Shown here: positions 677-7,660 of the stretch, piece after piece
How the letters are laid out: each line of letters opens with the position of its first letter
How positions within the stretch are numbered: the stretch's first letter is position 1
NCBI GenBank assembly: GCA_016209155.1
Contig: JACQWU010000240.1
Coordinates: 1-8,596 of the forward strand
DNA length: 8,596 nt
Origin: Candidatus Desantisiibacteriota bacterium
GTDB lineage: Bacteria > JACRDZ01
Direction of reading: 5' to 3'
The notes under the pieces: generated by a model
Databases searched by the model: none
The model's input: only the letters and a program-made list of their open reading frames with translations
Told to the model about the DNA's origin: nothing
Made by a program: the position numbers and the translations under genes

Positions 677-1867
677 TTATAACATTATTTTGTCCGCAAA
701 ATTCTTTCCATATTCATAACATTGTTTTGATTCATTTTCATCAGGAACATATTTAAATTGAATACCCGGCTGTACTATTTCTATCCCTGTTTCCTTTAAA
801 ATATTTTCTATTGATTTTACAGCTCCGCCGCTCCATCCGTAAGATCCAAAGGCACACCCGATTCTATTTTTTGGTTTCAATCCTTTCAGAAATTCGAGGA
901 ATCCGGCGATTGTAACAAGCATATCATTATTATGAGTTGATGAACCGATTATAAACCCTTTGCTGTCGAGCATCTCTCCTACTACTTCAGTCCTGTCTGC
1001 CTGGTTTATATCAAAAAGTTTTACTTCTATTCCGCTGTCTATTATTCCATTAACTATTTTTTTTGCCATCTTTTCAGTTGACTGCCACATTGTTTCATAA
1101 ACAACAACAATTTTTTTCTTAGTTTCATTTTTTCCCCATGATAAATAAGCATTGATAATTTTCATCGGATCTTTTCGCCAGATAATTCCGTGGCTGGGAG
1201 CTATTATCTTTATGGGGATACCCATTTTTACAACATCTTCAATCTTTTTCACCACAAGGCTGCTGAACGGCCATAAGATATTTGCGTAATATTTTACAGC
1301 TTCCTCCATCACAAAATTTAAATCAACTTCATCATCAAATATTTTTGATGACGCATAATGCTGGCCGAATGCGTCATTTGGTAAAAGCATTTCTTCTTCA
1401 GGGCAATAAGTGAACATACTGTCAGGCCAGTGAAGCATTGGCGCTTCCACAAACATCAGCGTCCTTTTCCCTAATTCTAATTTGTCACCTGTTTTTACAA
1501 TTTGAAAATCCCAATTTCCATAATAATTTTTATATAATCCTTCCTTACATTTTTGCGTACCAAAAACTTTCGCATTAGGACAAAATTTAATTATTACAGG
1601 GAGCGCGCCTGAATGATCGGTCTCCACATGATTGGCGATAATATAATCTATTCTTGAAGGGTCAATAACCTGTTTTATATTTTCAAGCATTTCACCAGCA
1701 AAAGGACCGTATACAGTATCGACTAAAGTAATTTTCTCATCTATTATTAAATAGGCATTATATGTACTTCCTCTTTTTGTATTATATGTATGGCCGTGAA
1801 ATTTTTTCACATTCCAATCAGTAGCTCCAACCCAGAATATGTTATTTTTTATTTCTATTTTGCTCAT
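677..1867 (-). CDS. fprA: Class A flavodiiron protein (O2/NO reductase)
   Basis: Flavodiiron proteins reduce O2 to water and/or NO to N2O in the cytosol, taking electrons from rubredoxin or F420H2. The 396 residues match the two-domain class A length. The N-terminal metallo-beta-lactamase-like domain (about 1-250) carries the complete diiron set: H80, E82, D84 and H85 in the HVETDHSG motif, H146, D165 in NDAFGQH, and H226 in PSHGIIWR. The flavodoxin domain (about 253-396) begins at KIVVVYETMW, with SSTHNND and FGSYGWSGG as flavin loops. No rubredoxin or flavin-reductase domain is fused, so it needs a separate donor; the anchored rubredoxin at 3489-3728 is a candidate. The ATG at 1867 is preceded by a perfect AAGGAGGT 8 bases away. 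It follows the response regulator gene by 59 bases and is probably co-transcribed. O2 versus NO preference cannot be read from the sequence. Confidence 0.96.
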   Translation of the reverse strand: MSKIEIKNNIFWVGATDWNVKKFHGHTYNTKRGSTYNAYLIIDEKITLVDTVYGPFAGEMLENIKQVIDPSRIDYIIANHVETDHSGALPVIIKFCPNAKVFGTQKCKEGLYKNYYGNWDFQIVKTGDKLELGKRTLMFVEAPMLHWPDSMFTYCPEEEMLLPNDAFGQHYASSKIFDDEVDLNFVMEEAVKYYANILWPFSSLVVKKIEDVVKMGIPIKIIAPSHGIIWRKDPMKIINAYLSWGKNETKKKIVVVYETMWQSTEKMAKKIVNGIIDSGIEVKLFDINQADRTEVVGEMLDSKGFIIGSSTHNNDMLVTIAGFLEFLKGLKPKNRIGCAFGSYGWSGGAVKSIENILKETGIEIVQPGIQFKYVPDENESKQCYEYGKNFADKIML

Positions 1868-1926: not shown

Positions 1927-2661
1927 TCATTTAATATATTTTTTATTTTTTTGATGTTTCTTGCGGTATTGCGTGGGGGTATATTTAACAAGTTTATTAA
2001 ATTGCCTGATAAAAGATTCAGAATTTTCATATCCCAATTTTTCCGAGATTTGGTTAACATTATAACCGGATTTAGTAAGGAGCTCTTTTGCTTTACCCAT
2101 TTTTATTTTCAGCTTGTATTCACTGAAGTTTACACCTGTATTTTCTTTAAATATTCTGCTTAAATATTTAGAGCTTAACCCCACAACTCTGGAAACATCA
2201 TGGAGGTAAATTTTTTTATAACAATTTCTCTCTATAAAATTTTTTGCTTTTTTAATCTTGTCTGAAATATCTCCTGTATCTATATTTTTTCCCAGCTGCT
2301 TTATATCCAGCAACCGTTCTATTATTTCTTTTGTTTTGTCAATATTCATCGGTTTTTCGAGATAATCATCAGCGTGCTCTTTTAGCGCATTTATAGCTAT
2401 ATCCTTTGAGCTGTAACCCGTTAGAATAATAATTTTAACTTCGGGGTCTGTTTTTTTTATATCCTTTAATACCTCAATCCCATTTATCCCGGGCAGCATT
2501 ATATCTAAAATAATAAGATCAATATTGTTCGCTGACTTTAATAGTTGCAGCGCTGTTTTTCCATCCGGGGCCTCTTCCATATCATAATCATTCAAAAAAT
2601 ATTCTTTAAATTCAGTCCTAAAACTCTTATCATCATCTATAATTAATATTTTATTCGGCAT
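1927..2661 (-). CDS. Response regulator with C-terminal AraC-type DNA-binding domain
   Basis: This is a 244-residue two-component transcription factor. The receiver domain (about 1-120) has the acidic pocket D9-D10-D11, phosphoacceptor D53, switch residue T81 and conserved K103, so it should be phosphorylatable. The AraC/XylS-type double helix-turn-helix is at about 138-238, with the typical second HTH and closing motif (ISEKLGYENSESFIRQF, then YTPTQYRK). There is no adjacent histidine kinase in the window, so its partner is elsewhere. It is the first gene before the flavodiiron protein, which makes control of that gene (and itself) a reasonable guess. A GGGGAAGG purine run sits just upstream of the ATG. 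The C-terminal tail is lysine-rich (HQKNKKYIK). AraC proteins bind direct repeats on one DNA face, which is why I mention it in connection with the triple repeats at 3804, 4606 and 7635. That link is inference. Confidence 0.93.
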   Translation of the reverse strand: MPNKILIIDDDKSFRTEFKEYFLNDYDMEEAPDGKTALQLLKSANNIDLIILDIMLPGINGIEVLKDIKKTDPEVKIIILTGYSSKDIAINALKEHADDYLEKPMNIDKTKEIIERLLDIKQLGKNIDTGDISDKIKKAKNFIERNCYKKIYLHDVSRVVGLSSKYLSRIFKENTGVNFSEYKLKIKMGKAKELLTKSGYNVNQISEKLGYENSESFIRQFNKLVKYTPTQYRKKHQKNKKYIK

Positions 2662-2740: not shown

Positions 2741-2919
2741 TCCTGACTCTTGCATAGCAAGATTCAGGAATCGCCAATACATCCCGAAATCCTGCGTCTT
2801 CGGCGATTTTACTCCTCACCGTACTGGTTAAGTACGGTTGCGTCGTAAAATCACCTGCCAGACTTGTTTTTCTGGCGTCCTGGCAATTTTACCTGAATCT
2901 AAAAGTGCAAGATTCAGGT
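2741..2919. repeat. Composite ~180-base intergenic element of nested hairpins
   Basis: Four inverted repeats follow one another. At 2741-2753/2757-2769 a 13-bp stem with one mismatch has loop ATA. At 2805-2812/2845-2852 GATTTTAC pairs with GTAAAATC and encloses ACCGTACT (2818-2825) with AGTACGGT (2831-2838). At 2857-2862/2871-2876 GCCAGA pairs with TCTGGC. At 2891-2900/2910-2919 a perfect 10-bp stem ACCTGAATCT/AGATTCAGGT closes the element. The first and last hairpins share the GATTCAGG arm, so the element has related ends. It fills nearly all the space between the response regulator promoter and the membrane protein gene, and the right-hand hairpin contains that gene's stop codon. It looks like a non-autonomous dispersed repeat rather than a gene: I see no ORF in it. 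Confidence 0.75.
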
Positions 2920-3321
2920 ACTATTATTTTTTTCTAACTGTAAAACATGAAATAAAGCGTAACCTGCGAAAAAATCAGCACAGGCAAGCATAATATCAGG
3001 TAAGGTGGATGTGAAAATCCATAATCCTAAAGGCGGCCGTTTTATTAAATATTCATAAATACTTAAATGTCCCATTAAAACAGCCGCATAAACAGCGAAG
3101 ATACCGTTTAATAAATAACCATAAGCAGAAGTTTTAGGTGACATAAATAAAGCACTTATTAAAATTAAATCAATCAATGGAAACAAAAAAGCAAAAAGAT
3201 TTGTTTTATCAATAATATCAGGATTGGTTTTTAAATATATCGGATGAATCCGTAGATGTAATAATAATGCGCCAAATGCTAATAATATTAAAGCTATCAA
3301 TAAACTCCTGCGTATATTCAT
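2914..3321 (-). CDS. Four-helix integral membrane protein, family not recognised
   Basis: The product has 135 residues with about four hydrophobic segments (roughly 5-22, 43-60, 68-88 and 103-127), short loops and a positively charged N-terminus (MNIRR). I do not recognise the family. It is the last gene of a three-gene unit with the anchored rubredoxin and the 39-residue membrane peptide (27-base gap upstream), so it may be the membrane partner of that electron carrier, for example a subunit that hands electrons to rubredoxin. No heme-ligating or quinone-binding motif can be claimed, although several histidines (in LHLRIHP near residue 21, GHLSIYE near 84, FHVLQL near 124) lie at helix ends. 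The start at 3321 has AAGGAGA six bases upstream. Its TGA stop lies inside the terminal hairpin of the repeat element, so the last residues may have been altered by that element. Confidence 0.75.
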   Translation of the reverse strand: MNIRRSLLIALILLAFGALLLHLRIHPIYLKTNPDIIDKTNLFAFLFPLIDLILISALFMSPKTSAYGYLLNGIFAVYAAVLMGHLSIYEYLIKRPPLGLWIFTSTLPDIMLACADFFAGYALFHVLQLEKNNST

Positions 3322-3488: not shown

Positions 3489-3728
3489 CTATTTAAAAAT
3501 CAGACGACCTAAAATATAAACTAAGCTTATTCCTGTAAAATGTAAAATCCACCATCCGGGTTGAAAAAGTTTAAAATGATCACTCCACTTTATTATAGAA
3601 GGCTGCATTAAAACAAAAGCCGGCTGATTAGCTCCGCATACCGGACATTTTTCTGGTACTTGATCATGACCATCAATGCTTATGCAGTTATGAATATATC
3701 CGCATACTTTACATTGGTACTTTACCAT
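3489..3728 (-). CDS. Membrane-anchored rubredoxin-like protein
   Basis: The 79 residues have two parts. Residues 1-38 form a rubredoxin-like iron site with C6-x2-C9-G-Y and C28-P-x-C31-G, of the short type seen at the C-terminus of rubrerythrins (18 residues between the pairs). Residues about 57-77 are a single hydrophobic helix beginning GWWILHF. The iron domain therefore should sit in the cytosol, tied to the inner membrane. Rubredoxins carry single electrons to flavodiiron proteins, superoxide reductase and rubrerythrin, all relevant here. It heads a three-gene unit with AGGAG seven bases before its ATG, a TATAAT at 3771-3766 and the triple repeat further up. C15 is an extra cysteine outside the site. 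The call of a rubredoxin fold is firm; the redox partner is inference. Confidence 0.9.
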   Translation of the reverse strand: MVKYQCKVCGYIHNCISIDGHDQVPEKCPVCGANQPAFVLMQPSIIKWSDHFKLFQPGWWILHFTGISLVYILGRLIFK

Positions 3729-3765: not shown

Positions 3766-3829
3766 ATTATACTTTTTTTAAAAGATATAGAAATAGGTTA
3801 ATACCACTTTTTATTGACTTTTTTCCACT
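3766..3829 (-). promoter_or_regulatory. Promoter of the rubredoxin unit with triple direct repeat
   Basis: On the minus strand AGTGG (3829-3825), AGTCA (3819-3815) and AGTGG (3808-3804) stand at 10- and 11-base intervals, separated by A-rich spacers. The -10 box TATAAT is at 3771-3766, 33 bases from the last repeat, and about 38 bases before the ATG. There is no good -35 box, as expected of an activator-dependent promoter. The same repeat with the same spacing is found upstream of the OsmC unit and of the unit starting at 7515. Confidence 0.6.
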
Positions 3830-3837
3830 ATTATATC

Positions 3838-3858
3838 GCGGTCAGGAGACCGCTCCTG
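3838..3858 (-). terminator. GC-rich hairpin after the OsmC gene
   Basis: GCGGTC (3838-3843) pairs with GACCGC (3848-3853) over loop AGGA. An alternative fold pairs CAGGAG (3843-3848) with CTCCTG (3853-3858). It begins 17 bases past the OsmC stop and is GC-rich in an AT-rich spacer, so it can end that transcript, although no T-run follows directly. The pair of mutually exclusive stems is typical of dispersed palindromic repeats, so it may be one that doubles as a terminator. Confidence 0.55.
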
Positions 3859-3874
3859 CCATTTATCAAATTGT

Positions 3875-4300
3875 TTATTGCTCCAGTTCAGCATTCATTG
3901 TAATTTTCGCGTTTAGTAATCTCGATACCGGACAGCCGGACTTAGCGCTATTTGCCGCTGCTAAAAATGCCTGCTCATTGGCTCCAGGAATTTTTGCTTT
4001 TACATCTAATAGTACAGCAGTAATAGTGAACCCTGCATCAGTTTTATCTAACGTAACAGTAGCTGTAGTACCTATCTTATCAGGCAGCATACCGGCTTTT
4101 TCCAACTCCCCGGAAAGCGCCATTGAAAAACAGCCCGCGTGCGCTGCGGCAATCAATTCTTCAGGGTTAGTTCCAATCTCATTTTCGAAACGGCTACTAA
4201 ATGAATATTTTGTGCTTAAAAGAATACCGCTTTCTGTCGAAACTGTTCCCTGTCCATTTTTTAATCCGCCATGCCATACAGCTGATCCTTTGCGTTTCAT
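3875..4300 (-). CDS. osmC: OsmC/Ohr-family peroxiredoxin
   Basis: OsmC proteins are homodimeric cytosolic thiol peroxidases that reduce organic hydroperoxides, usually recycled by lipoyl proteins or thioredoxin. The 141 residues fit the family. Peroxidatic C57 is in the AAAHAGCFSMAL helix, resolving C123 is in SGCPVSRLL, and R37 and E47 (in NPEELIAAA) complete the active site. The start MKRKGSAVWHGGLKNGQG is that of true OsmC rather than Ohr, so I prefer OsmC. Its ATG overlaps the TGA stop of the upstream small gene (ATGA), with AAGGA seven to eleven bases before, so translation is coupled. The promoter upstream of that gene carries both the shared triple repeat and a 7-1-7 palindrome, consistent with redox control. 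Family assignment is secure. Confidence 0.95.
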   Translation of the reverse strand: MKRKGSAVWHGGLKNGQGTVSTESGILLSTKYSFSSRFENEIGTNPEELIAAAHAGCFSMALSGELEKAGMLPDKIGTTATVTLDKTDAGFTITAVLLDVKAKIPGANEQAFLAAANSAKSGCPVSRLLNAKITMNAELEQ

Positions 4301-4506
4301 GTTAATTCCTTTCTGAGAAAGAAGTTATCCCTGTGGTTCACAGGGTTCTTCATTGGTGTTTTCCCTTTTTCGAGGCGATTTTTTAAGAAGCTTAATAATT
4401 CTTTTTGCGTTACTCCAGCATCCACCATATATTGAATACTGACCGCGTGTTCCATTTCCAATCCTCTGCTCAAAATTTTATTTAATTCCATTTTTATTTT
4501 ATCCAT
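4297..4506 (-). CDS. Small ferritin-helix-like protein 1, C-terminus running through a repeat
   Basis: This is a 69-residue soluble protein predicted to be helical. Residues 1-42 (MDKIKMELNKILSRG, then EHAVSIQYMV, QKELL) resemble the first helix of ferritin-like domains, where ExxH and QY line the iron site, but there is only room for one to two helices, not the four-helix bundle. It is paralogous to the 55-residue protein at 6835-7002: 31 of the first 42 residues are the same, and the DNA is visibly similar. Residues 54-60 are encoded by the hairpin at 4329-4345, just where the paralog stops, and the rest (NFFLRKELT) is translated OsmC leader. The tail is therefore probably acquired, not functional. 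A GGGAGG ribosome site precedes the ATG. It overlaps OsmC by four bases. It could oligomerise into a metal site or be a decayed ferritin; function unknown. Confidence 0.7.
   Translation of the reverse strand: MDKIKMELNKILSRGLEMEHAVSIQYMVDAGVTQKELLSFLKNRLEKGKTPMKNPVNHRDNFFLRKELT
4329..4345. repeat. CCCTGTG hairpin inside the end of a coding region
   Basis: CCCTGTG (4329-4335) and CACAGGG (4339-4345) form a 7-bp stem with loop GTT. With its flanks (minus strand ATGAAGAACCCTG at one side, ATAACTTC at the other) it matches the hairpin after the flavodiiron gene. It lies within the ferritin-helix-like gene, 29 bases before the OsmC start, so it would fold in the coupled mRNA near the OsmC ribosome site. 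Confidence 0.6.
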
Positions 4507-4547
4507 TCATAACCTCCCTTTTATTCAGACATTTATATTTCTCTATT

Positions 4548-4573
4548 TATGTTAAAAGATAACATAATGTTAT
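4548..4573. promoter_or_regulatory. Overlapping palindromes, Fur/PerR-type 7-1-7 operator candidate
   Basis: ATAACAT (4559-4565), one base, ATGTTAT (4567-4573) is a perfect 15-base odd palindrome of the 7-1-7 form used by Fur-family regulators. TATGTTA (4548-4554), five bases, TAACATA (4560-4566) overlaps it, giving three alternating half-sites. The palindrome covers the inferred -10 box (TAACAT, 4572-4567) of the OsmC unit, where a bound repressor would block RNA polymerase. Peroxide-sensing PerR is the attractive candidate for an OsmC gene. AT-rich DNA makes short palindromes cheap, so this is moderate evidence only. Confidence 0.45.
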
Positions 4574-4631
4574 TTTATTTCAGGAAAGTTTTGAATTGGT
4601 AGAGTCTACTTTTATGTGACTTATTTCCACT
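4567..4631 (-). promoter_or_regulatory. Promoter of the OsmC unit with triple direct repeat
   Basis: On the minus strand AGTGG (4631-4627), AGTCA (4621-4617) and AGTAG (4610-4606) occur at 10- and 11-base intervals, as in the other two copies. A -10-like TAACAT (4572-4567) follows at 34 bases and overlaps the 7-1-7 palindrome. From the -10 to the ATG at 4506 is about 60 bases. Confidence 0.55.
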
Positions 4632-4654
4632 TTTAGTTATGGATTTATGTTGTA

Positions 4655-4717
4655 ATGAAGAACATCGCGGCAGGCTGGGAGGTGCTTCATTTGTAACTTA
4701 TTCTATAAATAGCACCT
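4655..4717 (-). repeat. Inverted repeats and repeat remnant at the sugar dehydrogenase 3' end
   Basis: AGGTGCT (4680-4686) and AGCACCT (4711-4717) are perfect 7-base arms around the stop codon, and ATGAAG (4655-4660) faces CTTCAT (4685-4690). On the minus strand the stretch reads CTGCCGCGATGTTCTTCAT, close to CTGCCGCAGGGTTCTTCAT at 657-673, so this looks like a degraded, inverted member of that repeat family. With a 24-base loop it is a poor intrinsic terminator, but nothing better ends the five-gene unit. Confidence 0.4.
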
Positions 4718-5775
4718 TCTTTATCATCGGAAACAAGAAGCGCGCCATCGGGAATTACCAGGACATCAACCGGACGGCCCCAACCCATCCAGCCATCAGC
4801 AAAGACTTCATATTTTACCGGATTATTTCCTTCGAGTTCTACAAGTGTCACACGATAACCAATTGGGATACTGCGATTCCATGAACCGTGCTCTGCTATG
4901 AATATTTGATTTATATATTTTTCAGGAAACATCTTCCCGGTATAAAATCGCATCCCTAATGATGCTACATGAGGTCCAAGTTCAATAGAGGGCGGAACAA
5001 ATTCTTCAGGTTTATGCCCATAACCAAATTCAGGGTCCAAAATAGCTTTGTTATGAACATAAGGGAATCCAAAATGAAGACCTTTTACAGGAGCGTGATT
5101 CAATTCATCATGCGGAATATCATCACCAAGCATATCACGCCCGTTATCTGTGAACCAAAGTTTTTTTGTTATTGGGTGAAAGTCAAATCCAACCGTGTTT
5201 CGAACTCCACCGGCAAATATTTCTAATCCGCTTCCATCTGGCATCATACGCATAATAGAAGCATATCTTTTATCACTTTTCTCACAAACATTACATGGTG
5301 CTCCTACGGGGACATAAAGCATCCCATCAGGCCCAAAACGTATAAATTTCCATCCATGAAGAGTATCTTTTGGAAAACTGTCATTAATAACAATAGGTAC
5401 CGGTGGATTTTTCAGATGATTTTCTATGTCATCATATCTAATAATTCTGCTTATTTCAGCAACGTAAAGCGCGCCATCTTTAAATGCGACACCGTTGGGC
5501 ATATTTAGATTCCGAGCAATTATGATGATTTCATCTGCTTTATTATCTTTGTTTTTATCAAGAACAGCATATATATTACCAGCATCTCGTGTACCTACAA
5601 ATAAAATTCCTGTTGGGCTTAAAACCATTGAACGCGCTCCATTAATATTATCGGCATAAACATCAATATGGAATCCCTGAGGCAATTTTATTTTGTCAAG
5701 CAGAGGCTCAGCATTAGTACAAGCTGCGAGATGTAATAATATCAATACAATAGGTAAAGCTTTAAATCTCAACAT
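4687..5775 (-). CDS. Lipoprotein, sorbosone/PQQ-type sugar dehydrogenase family
   Basis: This 362-residue beta-propeller protein belongs to the glucose/sorbosone dehydrogenase family (COG2133 type), whose known members oxidise sugar aldehydes or aldose with PQQ. A lipoprotein signal peptide ends in the lipobox LAAC with C19; T20-N21 follow, so an outer-membrane or periplasmic location is expected. Landmarks include H140, placed like the catalytic His before the FGPDGMLYVPVG strand, a calcium-loop-like DKNKDNKAD (73-81), GVRNTVGFDFHP and AEHGSWNRS near 300. A CNVC pair (161-164) is suggestive of a disulfide. It is the last gene of the unit starting at 7515. The ATG at 5775 has AAGGA about ten bases upstream. 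Many family members are not proven to bind PQQ, and there are no PQQ synthesis genes here, so the substrate and cofactor remain open. Confidence 0.88.
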   Translation of the reverse strand: MLRFKALPIVLILLHLAACTNAEPLLDKIKLPQGFHIDVYADNINGARSMVLSPTGILFVGTRDAGNIYAVLDKNKDNKADEIIIIARNLNMPNGVAFKDGALYVAEISRIIRYDDIENHLKNPPVPIVINDSFPKDTLHGWKFIRFGPDGMLYVPVGAPCNVCEKSDKRYASIMRMMPDGSGLEIFAGGVRNTVGFDFHPITKKLWFTDNGRDMLGDDIPHDELNHAPVKGLHFGFPYVHNKAILDPEFGYGHKPEEFVPPSIELGPHVASLGMRFYTGKMFPEKYINQIFIAEHGSWNRSIPIGYRVTLVELEGNNPVKYEVFADGWMGWGRPVDVLVIPDGALLVSDDKEGAIYRISYK

Positions 5776-5842
5776 GAGATAATATCCTTATTTATTTCAT
5801 ATTGACTGTATTTCTTTTTTTCACTAATTTTTCCGCCTCAAT

Positions 5843-5989
5843 CTAATCAGCTAAATCATTACCATGCGCGTAATTTCTTTTTTCATAAAGATTATACGCA
5901 ACCTCGCTGATTTTTTTATCCAATTGTGTTTTTGATAAATGATCCTTTGAAACTTTAGAATTTAAATCTAAATCGGTTTTTTTTGCCAT
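5843..5989 (-). CDS. DUF2934 small protein, truncated by an in-frame TAG
   Basis: The 48 residues begin MAKKTDLDLNSKVSKDH and contain ISEVAYNLYEKRNYAHGNDLAD. This is the DUF2934 signature (AYxLYExRG, HGxDLxDWxxAE), a family of small uncharacterised proteins. The reading frame stops at TAG (5845-5843) exactly where the family has its conserved Trp of DW. After the TAG the same frame continues with IEAEKLVKKRN and ends at TAA 5792, which restores the family's ending and brings the gene to within 16 bases of the next start. One base (TGG to TAG) accounts for this, so it is either a recent nonsense mutation or a sequence error; the shortened protein keeps most of the domain. A strong AAGGAGA lies upstream of the ATG. 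Function unknown. Confidence 0.8.
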   Translation of the reverse strand: MAKKTDLDLNSKVSKDHLSKTQLDKKISEVAYNLYEKRNYAHGNDLAD

Positions 5990-6029
5990 TGGTAATATCT
6001 CCTTTTTTTAAATTAAGTTTAGTTGAATT

Positions 6030-6812
6030 TTATAGTAAAATAAACAATAATCTCAGCTTGCTACGAGGTATCTTATTTTCCAGTTTTTTTAAAAATTTTT
6101 GTATTCTTTTTGCATTTGTTCCGATATCGCTTCTGCCGACTCTTGAGACAGAACTGAGGTCAATCCGGCTTGAATTATCAAAAGGTGTGATACGTATCAC
6201 AATATCATCCTTGAATCCAAACCAGAATGTTCTGTCTGTTGCTTCAATGAATCCCTCATTTTGTTTTGTATTTACAATTTCCCAGTTCATTTCCTTAGCT
6301 ATTGCGAGGCAAAGTTCATACGCATCTATCTTTATAAGTTTAATTATAGTGGGTTTAATATCCGGATATGCTTTAATCTGCTGTGAACTTATCTGTTTTC
6401 CACCATATTCAGGAGGATTTGGAGCGTCTTTACGCAGCTTCAAAATCATATCAAATTCGGGTGGATTTTCTATGTCGGTAGTAATATCATGGATAGCCGG
6501 AACGCTCTTAGCAGTATACATCCATTTTAGAGCTATACTTAACACTGAAATACTTATTAAAAAGCCAATTATAGAAAGAGTAAATGCGGGTTTAGATTGT
6601 TTATTTACTGTAAGTATACAAAGGACTAAGGTTATGACAAATGCAATCATTTCAGCGTATACTGCCCACCTGAATATTTTTAGACCGGTTCGGAAATCCC
6701 ATAATGCCCATCTCGTACCTAAGCCGGAGAAAATAGCGGTTAGAGTAAAAACGATTGCTAAATAGAAACCTGCAAATGCAAAAATTAAAATATTGTTTTG
6801 CTCTTTTATCAT
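6030..6812 (-). CDS. DUF1499 membrane protein
   Basis: The product has 260 residues. Three membrane helices (about 8-30, 48-69 and 77-97) are followed by a C-terminal DUF1499 domain (about 105-250). The VPAIHDITTD stretch at 104-113, then GFIEATDRTFWFGFKDD, IRITP and SRVGRSDIGTNAKRI, are recognisable DUF1499 features. The domain faces either the periplasm or cytosol; its role is unknown. A longer reading frame opens with TTG at 6830, but I chose ATG at 6812 because GGAG lies seven bases before it and the TTG has no ribosome site. It is third in the unit between the ferritin-helix-like gene (22 bases upstream) and the DUF2934 gene (40 bases downstream). Confidence 0.88.
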   Translation of the reverse strand: MIKEQNNILIFAFAGFYLAIVFTLTAIFSGLGTRWALWDFRTGLKIFRWAVYAEMIAFVITLVLCILTVNKQSKPAFTLSIIGFLISISVLSIALKWMYTAKSVPAIHDITTDIENPPEFDMILKLRKDAPNPPEYGGKQISSQQIKAYPDIKPTIIKLIKIDAYELCLAIAKEMNWEIVNTKQNEGFIEATDRTFWFGFKDDIVIRITPFDNSSRIDLSSVSRVGRSDIGTNAKRIQKFLKKLENKIPRSKLRLLFILL

Positions 6813-6834
6813 TTTTATTCTCCGTTTCAATTCT

Positions 6835-7002
6835 CTAATCCTTTTTTATTTTTTCCATAGTTCGAATTGATTTTTTTAAGGTATTCAATAATTCTTTTTG
6901 AGCCAATCTGGCATTGACCATATATTGAATCCTGAAAGCGTGTTCCAGTTCCCTTCCCCTGCTCAGTATTTTATTTAATTCCTCTTTTATTTTATCCATC
7001 AT
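6835..7002 (-). CDS. Small ferritin-helix-like protein 2
   Basis: The 55 residues run from MMDKIKEELNKILSRG through ELEHAFRIQYMV to a basic tail MEKIKKD. It is highly helical, without cysteines or membrane segment. It is the paralog of the protein at 4297-4506 and shows the natural end of that family, so the protein is short by design and not cut. The EHAxxIQY stretch resembles helix A of ferritin-like proteins. Two ATGs stand in a row (7002 and 6999); AAGG lies upstream and the paralog suggests the second may be the real start. It sits 24 bases after the barrel-like gene. Both copies are in units with the same triple-repeat promoter. Function unknown. Confidence 0.75.
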   Translation of the reverse strand: MMDKIKEELNKILSRGRELEHAFRIQYMVNARLAQKELLNTLKKSIRTMEKIKKD

Positions 7003-7026
7003 AATATCCTTTTAATTCACTACTAC

Positions 7027-7515
7027 TCACTGAAAATAATATCTGACGCCAAACCCCGCGTTCATTTTAAATTCTGAACCTGGTATCAGGTCAAGAATAG
7101 GTACAACTTCAAGAAAAATTTCAATAGGGTCGATTGAAAAAAGATAATTTATTCCTATTGGAATCCGAATACCGGCTTTTGTATCCGCATTCTTATCAGT
7201 TATAAATTTGATTCCTGTACCAACACCATAATAAAGAATAATATCTTTATTCATATTTAATTCATTTAATTTATTAAAGTTGTGCACAAGATAATCAAAA
7301 TGGAGATTTAAGTTGTTATTATTTCCTGTTGACCATGCAATGCCGCCATCAATTGCAATGTCTGGCCCTGTCCACATTTTGCCGCTTAATCCACTCGGCT
7401 CACCCAAAATAATTCCTAAACCAAGTTTCCTGTTTTGTGGTATATTAACCTGCGCTGACGCGCTGATACAAAGTAATAATGTAATTAATCCAAAAAAAAT
7501 AAATGTTTTAAACAT
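7027..7515 (-). CDS. Exported protein, probable small outer-membrane beta-barrel
   Basis: The 162 residues start with a clear signal peptide (MFKTFIFFGLI) with likely cleavage after ASA at 19-21. The mature part alternates hydrophobic and polar residues as in beta strands, with glycine and aromatic residues, e.g. LGLGIILGEPSGLSGKMW, HFDYLVHNF and LYYGVGTGIKF, and ends in YYF-Q, close to the C-terminal aromatic signature of outer-membrane barrels. It resembles widespread small uncharacterised barrel proteins with the LGEPxGLSGK motif. This supports a diderm host. It is the first gene of a five-gene unit; AAGGAGA lies before the ATG. No function can be given beyond an envelope role. Confidence 0.8.
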   Translation of the reverse strand: MFKTFIFFGLITLLLCISASAQVNIPQNRKLGLGIILGEPSGLSGKMWTGPDIAIDGGIAWSTGNNNNLNLHFDYLVHNFNKLNELNMNKDIILYYGVGTGIKFITDKNADTKAGIRIPIGINYLFSIDPIEIFLEVVPILDLIPGSEFKMNAGFGVRYYFQ

Positions 7516-7596
7516 ACCATCTCCTTTTGCTCATAATAACACAATTTTACTTTTTATTTCTATTCTAAGAGCGCTTGTTGATCTATAACTATGTTT

Positions 7597-7660
7597 ATTA
7601 TATAAAAAAAGATAAAAATGTTAATTGGTTGATTCCCCTTTTTATTGACTTACTACTACT
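7597..7660 (-). promoter_or_regulatory. Promoter of the five-gene envelope unit with triple direct repeat
   Basis: On the minus strand AGTAG (7660-7656), AGTCA (7650-7646) and AGGGG (7639-7635) repeat with 10- and 11-base steps, then TATAAT (7602-7597) follows 33 bases later. The spacing is the same as in the rubredoxin unit. The -10 lies about 80 bases from the ATG at 7515, so the leader is fairly long. The outer two repeats are more diverged here than in the other copies; the central AGTCAATAAAAAG is fully kept. Confidence 0.55.

Follow-up and report, generated by a model that had tools for sequence, protein, structure and literature searches.

A four-part direct-repeat promoter box in Candidatus Desantisiibacteriota, Omnitrophota and Elusimicrobiota and the AraC-type response regulator that very probably reads it

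Promoter boxes of the window and their candidate regulator

The DNA analyzed here (the window, 8,596 nucleotides of contig JACQWU010000240.1) derives from the genome of a Candidatus Desantisiibacteriota bacterium (GCA_016209155.1). Its minus strand carries, at three places, a tandem direct repeat located upstream of genes encoding a rubredoxin-like protein, a short ferritin-helix-like protein together with OsmC, and a unit that starts with a DUF3996 protein. Based on the comparison of genomes, we consider it highly probable that these repeats act as promoter boxes in a general stress regulon with a redox leaning, and that the output component of this regulon is the AraC-type response regulator encoded at 1927-2661 or, in other genomes, its orthologs. 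The pattern very probably serves as the binding site of a single master stress switch, an AraC-type DNA-binding protein coupled to a sensor. We computed the box and its distance to the -10 element, its conservation, its co-occurrence and linkage with the regulator, the surrounding kinase-receiver-box locus and the target set. The features concerned are:

3792..3829, minus strand: box 1, 38 bp, four sub-sites, 5' of the rubredoxin-like gene; 0 mismatches to the pattern, 49.7 bits
3766..3771, minus strand: -10 element of box 1, TATAAT, 32 bases after the third repeat
4594..4631, minus strand: box 2, 5' of the short ferritin-helix-like gene and osmC; 0 mismatches, 42.4 bits
4572..4577, minus strand: best -10 candidate of box 2, TAAAAT, 28 bases after the third repeat; off the usual spacing and uncertain
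4567-4572, minus strand: alternative -10 candidate of box 2, TAACAT, found by eye, 33 bases
7623..7660, minus strand: box 3, 5' of the DUF3996/ferritin-helix-like/DUF1499 unit; 1 mismatch, 41.9 bits
7597..7602, minus strand: -10 element of box 3, TATAAT, 32 bases after the third repeat
1927..2661, minus strand: response regulator with receiver and AraC-type helix-turn-helix (HTH) domains (Pfam); proposed box-binding protein, based on co-occurrence and linkage with the box

The repeats reported in an initial annotation were all re-found, at 3829-3804 (AGTGG-AAAAA-AGTCA-ATAAAA-AGTGG), 4631-4606 (AGTGG-AAATA-AGTCA-CATAAA-AGTAG) and 7660-7635 (AGTAG-TAGTA-AGTCA-ATAAAA-AGGGG) of the minus strand, with steps of exactly 10 and 11 bases at each site. 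The triple pattern matches on average 0.10 times per shuffled window, and three matches were reached in none of 200 dinucleotide-preserving shuffles. Other details had to be corrected. A TATAAT-like box had been placed 33 or 34 bases on at all three sites, but we measured 32 at the 3829 and 7660 sites, while at 4631 the best hexamer stands at 28 and only the TAACAT seen by eye at 33. The three repeat units stand, yet the element is not a triple one, since a conserved fourth element, (AG)CCAATT, follows the third. The promoters have no consensus -35, and the fourth sub-site overlaps the -35 position.

Architecture and conservation of the box

The complete box is 38 bp long, with the consensus RGTGG AAAAA AGTCA WAAAAA AGYRG AATCA GCCAATT. 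Its fourth element was first seen as NSYWATT after the third repeat, in an alignment of copies from the window genome and two genomes of the same phylum. The sub-sites start at columns 1, 11, 22 and 31 and form tandem direct repeats about one helical turn apart, the last part of the box lying at roughly -39 to -33. When the columns are matched against each other, columns 1-6 fit best at column 22 and columns 11-17 at column 31; thus, the element reads as two composite sites in tandem. Among 147 distinct boxes, information is about zero directly upstream, and the main other conserved element is the -10, some 20-21 nucleotides (nt) downstream. The best TATAAT-like hexamer falls at offset 19-22 in 97 of the 147 boxes, compared with 24 of 145 upstream controls. 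The spacers are A-rich even in loci of more than 50% GC (A fraction 0.84-0.87 vs 0.23-0.34 in the 60 nt upstream).

Four genomes of the window's phylum were compared, i.e., the window genome G000 (3.08 Mb, 352 contigs, 79% complete), G001, G002 and G003. The genomes used throughout are mostly metagenome drafts, and G000 was examined by pattern searches plus about 0.5 Mb of its contigs. G000 holds a further exact triple copy 5' of a cyclopropane-fatty-acid synthase gene and a one-mismatch copy 5' of a gene encoding a CoA-disulfide-reductase-like protein with a rhodanese domain. In two same-phylum genomes, copies precede the orthologous cyclopropane synthase, the DUF1540/dienelactone hydrolase unit and Ku, and a counterpart of box 1 was also found 5' of the G001 rubredoxin ortholog. 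The 38-bp pattern identified 8 sites in G000, 7 in G001, 19 in G003 and 0 in G002, and an improved pattern about 11, 11, 29 and 0, respectively, with 0 in the reversed control. Searched over 248 kb, a weight matrix built from 34 sites, all from the window's phylum (G000, G001, G003), scored 47 sites higher than 20 bits; five Markov shuffles and the reversed sequence contained no such site.

Two outcomes named in the initial annotation as speaking against a regulatory role did not occur. Instead of being scattered at random or inside genes across the genome, the boxes are located 5' of stress genes, and instead of being lost in relatives, they are kept. In four orthologous promoters (cyclopropane synthase, rubredoxin, dienelactone hydrolase and an unnamed 105-aa gene), box identity amounts to 71-87%, against 33-42% (ungapped) in the 60 nt upstream. 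Some pattern matches were discarded: a one-mismatch match at G000:C287 was rejected as coding- or repeat-like sequence with spacers that are not A-rich, and, in a search of 98 genomes with the plain triple pattern, the matches outside the phylum (G036 and G043) look like chance by the same features.

The regulator, its orthologs and their association with the box

The protein encoded at 1927-2661 consists of a receiver domain (Pfam Response_reg, 9e-28, residues 5-114) and a C-terminal AraC-type two-HTH domain (HTH_18, 1e-21, and two HTH_AraC stretches), which matches the YesN domain 3lsg. There is no winged-helix (Trans_reg_C) match among its Pfam hits, and among the NCBIfam matches listed none reaches the equivalog cut-off (AryK, PocR, AraC and others; best score 78 bits vs 208-1550). 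Orthologs are encoded by G001 (84% identity) and G003 (69%), while in G002 neither an ortholog nor a box was found. A scan of one genome per species revealed five full-length orthologs (49-57%) in Candidatus Omnitrophota and Elusimicrobia, below which there is a sharp drop to mostly receiver-only matches. The phylum-trained matrix, applied out of sample, scored 28-47 bits beside four of these five distant orthologs; its maximum on 75 control loci (1.15 Mb) was 8.6 bits.

We determined that box and regulator occur together in all groups surveyed. Among 285 Omnitrophota genomes, 34 have both, 7 the regulator only, 6 the box only and 238 neither, so that boxes are present in 34 of 41 regulator-bearing genomes vs 6 of 244 others. 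The corresponding numbers for 247 Elusimicrobiota genomes are 17, 5, 2 and 223 (17 of 22 vs 2 of 225). In a domain-wide survey of 386 genomes, the full-length regulator (E < 1e-50) was detected in exactly seven, all seven with boxes; six other genomes have one box each, which equals the level of the reversed control, and none has more. Where box and regulator share a contig, they lie at most 5 kb apart in 45 of 50 genomes and at most 300 bp apart in 20. This co-occurrence and co-localization across phyla supports the earlier proposal that the protein at 1927-2661 is the regulator of the box.

A sister clade of the regulator (support 1.0) from Omnitrophota genomes G208, G281, G289, G297, G319 and G321 shows a one-residue deletion and a changed HTH1 motif. 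These genomes are devoid of good boxes, which suggests that the clade may read a different box.

The kinase-receiver-box locus

The genetic context of the regulator gene is recurrent. In G001, G003 and several Omnitrophota and Elusimicrobia loci, the usual, though varying, order is regulator, PAS histidine kinase, receiver-only protein, box and second receiver-only protein, followed by genes encoding, e.g., superoxide reductase, a ferritin-like protein or 2-oxoacid:ferredoxin oxidoreductase. The kinases carry PAS and, in some cases, also GAF, Cache or HAMP domains. The AraC-type regulator is the sole DNA-binding protein of the conserved locus, the others being the kinase and the receiver-only proteins; no sigma factor gene is present in the loci inspected. 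In six loci, a box stands directly 5' of the regulator gene itself, which suggests autoregulation.

In the kinases of G003 and G001 (loci L059 and L060), the stretch that separates the PAS from the kinase domain, where Pfam recognizes no domain, has several cysteines at corresponding positions (CxCVGIRI ... CxCIRV ... FYCN); they could hold a metal or Fe-S redox sensor. In Elusimicrobiota loci L274-L283, L289 and L293, the box beside the regulator often precedes not a short receiver protein but one of 400-475 aa with a proline/alanine-rich N-terminus and a receiver-like motif.

Genes downstream of the boxes

In the window, the following genes belong to the box-controlled units or neighbor the regulator:

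3489..3728, minus strand: rubredoxin-like protein with a C-terminal membrane helix (Pfam RUBY_RBDX), target of box 1, which lies 63 nt before its start
2914..3321, minus strand: membrane protein without a Pfam match, probably in the box 1 unit (gene order as in G001)
4297..4506, minus strand: short ferritin-helix-like protein, first gene after box 2, similar to the N-terminal part of a ferritin-like protein that is under box control in G003
3875..4300, minus strand: OsmC-like protein (Pfam OsmC, 3e-18), second gene after box 2
7027..7515, minus strand: DUF3996 protein (Pfam), first gene after box 3, which lies 107 nt before its start
6835..7002, minus strand: second short ferritin-helix-like protein, without a Pfam match, box 3 unit
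6030..6830, minus strand: DUF1499 protein (Pfam DUF1499, 2e-23), box 3 unit
677..1867, minus strand: flavodiiron protein FprA (Pfam), downstream of the regulator; box-controlled in G001 (G001:C94, box 6943)

Across genomes, the redox-related genes found after boxes encode rubredoxin, OsmC, superoxide reductase, Fe/Mn superoxide dismutase, ferritin-like proteins and FprA, as well as a carboxymuconolactone-decarboxylase (AhpD-like) protein, the CoA-disulfide-reductase-like protein, multihaem cytochromes and 2-oxoacid oxidoreductase. Others encode cyclopropane synthase, dienelactone hydrolase, Ku, Hsp20, DoxX, BON, DUF2934 and DUF1540 proteins and phosphoribosyltransferase. Receiver-only proteins are the commonest; their count is inflated, as many of the loci were retrieved by their position around the regulator. 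The set is broad in stress-gene families and, judged by these families, looks like a general stress or dormancy response that emphasizes redox functions.

The paralogous 69-aa (4297-4506) and 55-aa (6835-7002) proteins align only with the N-terminal helix of a 160-aa ferritin-like protein, which is itself located after boxes in G003 and Omnitrophota. The two paralogs appear to be truncated or stand-alone ferritin helices retained in the regulon.

Proposed mechanism and alternative explanations

We propose that an adjacent PAS histidine kinase (in some genomes also with GAF or Cache domains) would phosphorylate the receiver domain of the regulator. In its active form, the protein would bind as a head-to-tail pair of monomers, and each monomer would occupy one composite site, with its two HTHs in successive major grooves. 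The distal site would be RGTGG-N5-AGTCAAT and the proximal one AGYRG-N4-AGCCAATT, which overlaps the -35 position. Phased A-tracts between the sub-sites may aid DNA bending. The proximal monomer would then recruit RNA polymerase of the housekeeping type to a promoter that has a TATAAT box but lacks a consensus -35, in a class-II-like activation. Binding to direct repeats is restricted to few HTH regulators, mostly of the AraC family (PMC9723621). In this scheme we infer direct binding, the sub-site assignment, phospho-control and the signal.

Several points weigh against this model. Activation is inferred from promoter geometry only, and sub-sites 2 and 4 are moderately similar (0.49). The window has no kinase gene adjacent to the regulator: FprA directly follows the regulator (1868-1926 between the genes), where G001 has the histidine kinase, a receiver protein and a box (L060 6943-9187). 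Contig C109 of the window genome encodes a homolog of the kinase catalytic core (50% identical); this gene (L064 9406-9996) is truncated by the end of the contig and lies near three other boxes. In six Omnitrophota genomes, boxes were found but no regulator, also when the six were searched again with a looser cut-off; in three of them (G134, G286, G369) the boxes are convincing. Conversely, the regulator is present and the pattern unmatched in 7 Omnitrophota and 5 Elusimicrobiota genomes. The draft state of the genomes may account for part of both kinds of case. Some of the regulator-only genomes have missed or weak boxes (36 bits in G782, missed by the pattern; 15-17 bits in G829 and G919), and others (G281, G289, G297, G319) belong to the diverged clade with the altered HTH region. 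The Fisher values for co-occurrence (6e-31 in Omnitrophota, 6e-20 in Elusimicrobiota, 7e-12 in the survey) are too optimistic because the genomes are related; the groups nevertheless agree.

The box-bearing Omnitrophota genomes without a detected ortholog would fit a different regulator, e.g., an OmpR/PhoB-type winged-helix response regulator, with the AraC-type gene as a passenger of a stress island. The geometry, direct repeats of about 11 bp overlapping the -35, is also similar to that of Pho boxes. We regard this as unlikely: the conserved locus encodes no other DNA-binding protein, boxes are present in all seven regulator genomes of the 386-genome survey and number more than one in no other, and the alternating sub-sites suit a two-HTH monomer. 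Less probable still is a dedicated alternative sigma promoter in which CCAATT serves as the -35, TATAAT as the -10 and the upstream repeats as an UP element. The targets do resemble sigma-driven general stress regulons and the A-tracts do resemble UP elements, but AGTCA, where conservation is strongest, is located near -60 and so out of reach of sigma contacts, the -10 is of the housekeeping type, the 20-21 nt from CCAATT to it are too long for a normal spacer, and the conserved locus lacks a sigma gene. The A-richness of the sites, in an AT-rich window genome, might suggest chance or the spread of a mobile or simple A-rich repeat; this explanation is extremely improbable. Information is about zero just upstream of the box, the spacers vary between copies, the A content of the box is just as high in loci above 50% GC, and orthologous promoters retain the box while their flanks diverge. 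With shuffled and reversed controls empty or nearly so, we excluded a mobile-repeat or chance origin.

Relation to known systems

Like AraC/XylS activators and AraC-type response regulators (AraC I1-I2, YesN-like), the window regulator has a two-HTH DNA-binding domain, and YesN-like proteins share its domain order (receiver and AraC HTH). Operators of the AraC I1-I2 type likewise consist of tandem direct-repeat sub-sites one helical turn apart, the last overlapping the -35. The system described here differs in its own box sequence, its four-part architecture with conserved A-tracts and its large stress regulon, as opposed to a local carbon-source or transport operon. The sigma-S, sigma-B and EcfG regulons share target families with it (OsmC, cyclopropane synthase, Ku, Hsp20, superoxide defence, ferritin-like, DoxX, BON), yet here a housekeeping-type -10 (TATAAT) is combined with a putative activator box, the locus has no sigma factor, and a response regulator is the proposed controller. 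In mycobacteria, DosR (DevR) exerts two-component control over dormancy and redox genes through tens of boxes, several of them near the regulator. The present system is alike in the proposed two-component control of such a gene set and in boxes near the regulator, but DosR is of the NarL/LuxR type with a palindromic box, in contrast to an AraC-type protein and direct repeats. PhoB and other OmpR-type boxes are tandem direct repeats of about 11 bp in place of the -35; they differ in sequence, and the regulator linked here carries HTH_18/HTH_AraC and no winged-helix Pfam match.

In agreement with the initial annotation, which knew of no motif with this sequence, a literature search that covered few subscription papers found no description of motif, regulator or regulon. 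As far as we can tell, an AraC-type two-component regulator is a known kind, whereas its use for a stress regulon across several phyla is new. Whether this pairing of regulator and four-part direct-repeat box is a sigma-independent general stress response, an old master system of Omnitrophota, Elusimicrobiota and the window's small phylum in place of sigma-S, sigma-B or EcfG, we judge to be about evenly balanced. The phyla concerned are almost wholly uncultured, and the pair offers a readable regulon, with up to about 30 boxes per genome, in organisms without genetics. Stress, oxygen-defence and dormancy genes can thereby be listed from sequence, many of them of unknown function (DUF1540, DUF2934, DUF1499, DUF3996, receiver-only proteins). 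It also makes testable the question of whether a two-component activator that acts on housekeeping promoters can govern a whole-cell stress response in place of an alternative sigma factor.

Further features of the window

A small gene at 5843-5989 (minus strand), encoding a 48-aa DUF2934-like protein, has no box of its own; in G001 and Omnitrophota, related genes are preceded by boxes. A repeat-rich stretch (2740-2920) with near-identical ends (aagattcaggaa and aagattcaggta) separates the regulator from the gene upstream of it, at the place where G001 has a Fe/Mn superoxide dismutase gene.

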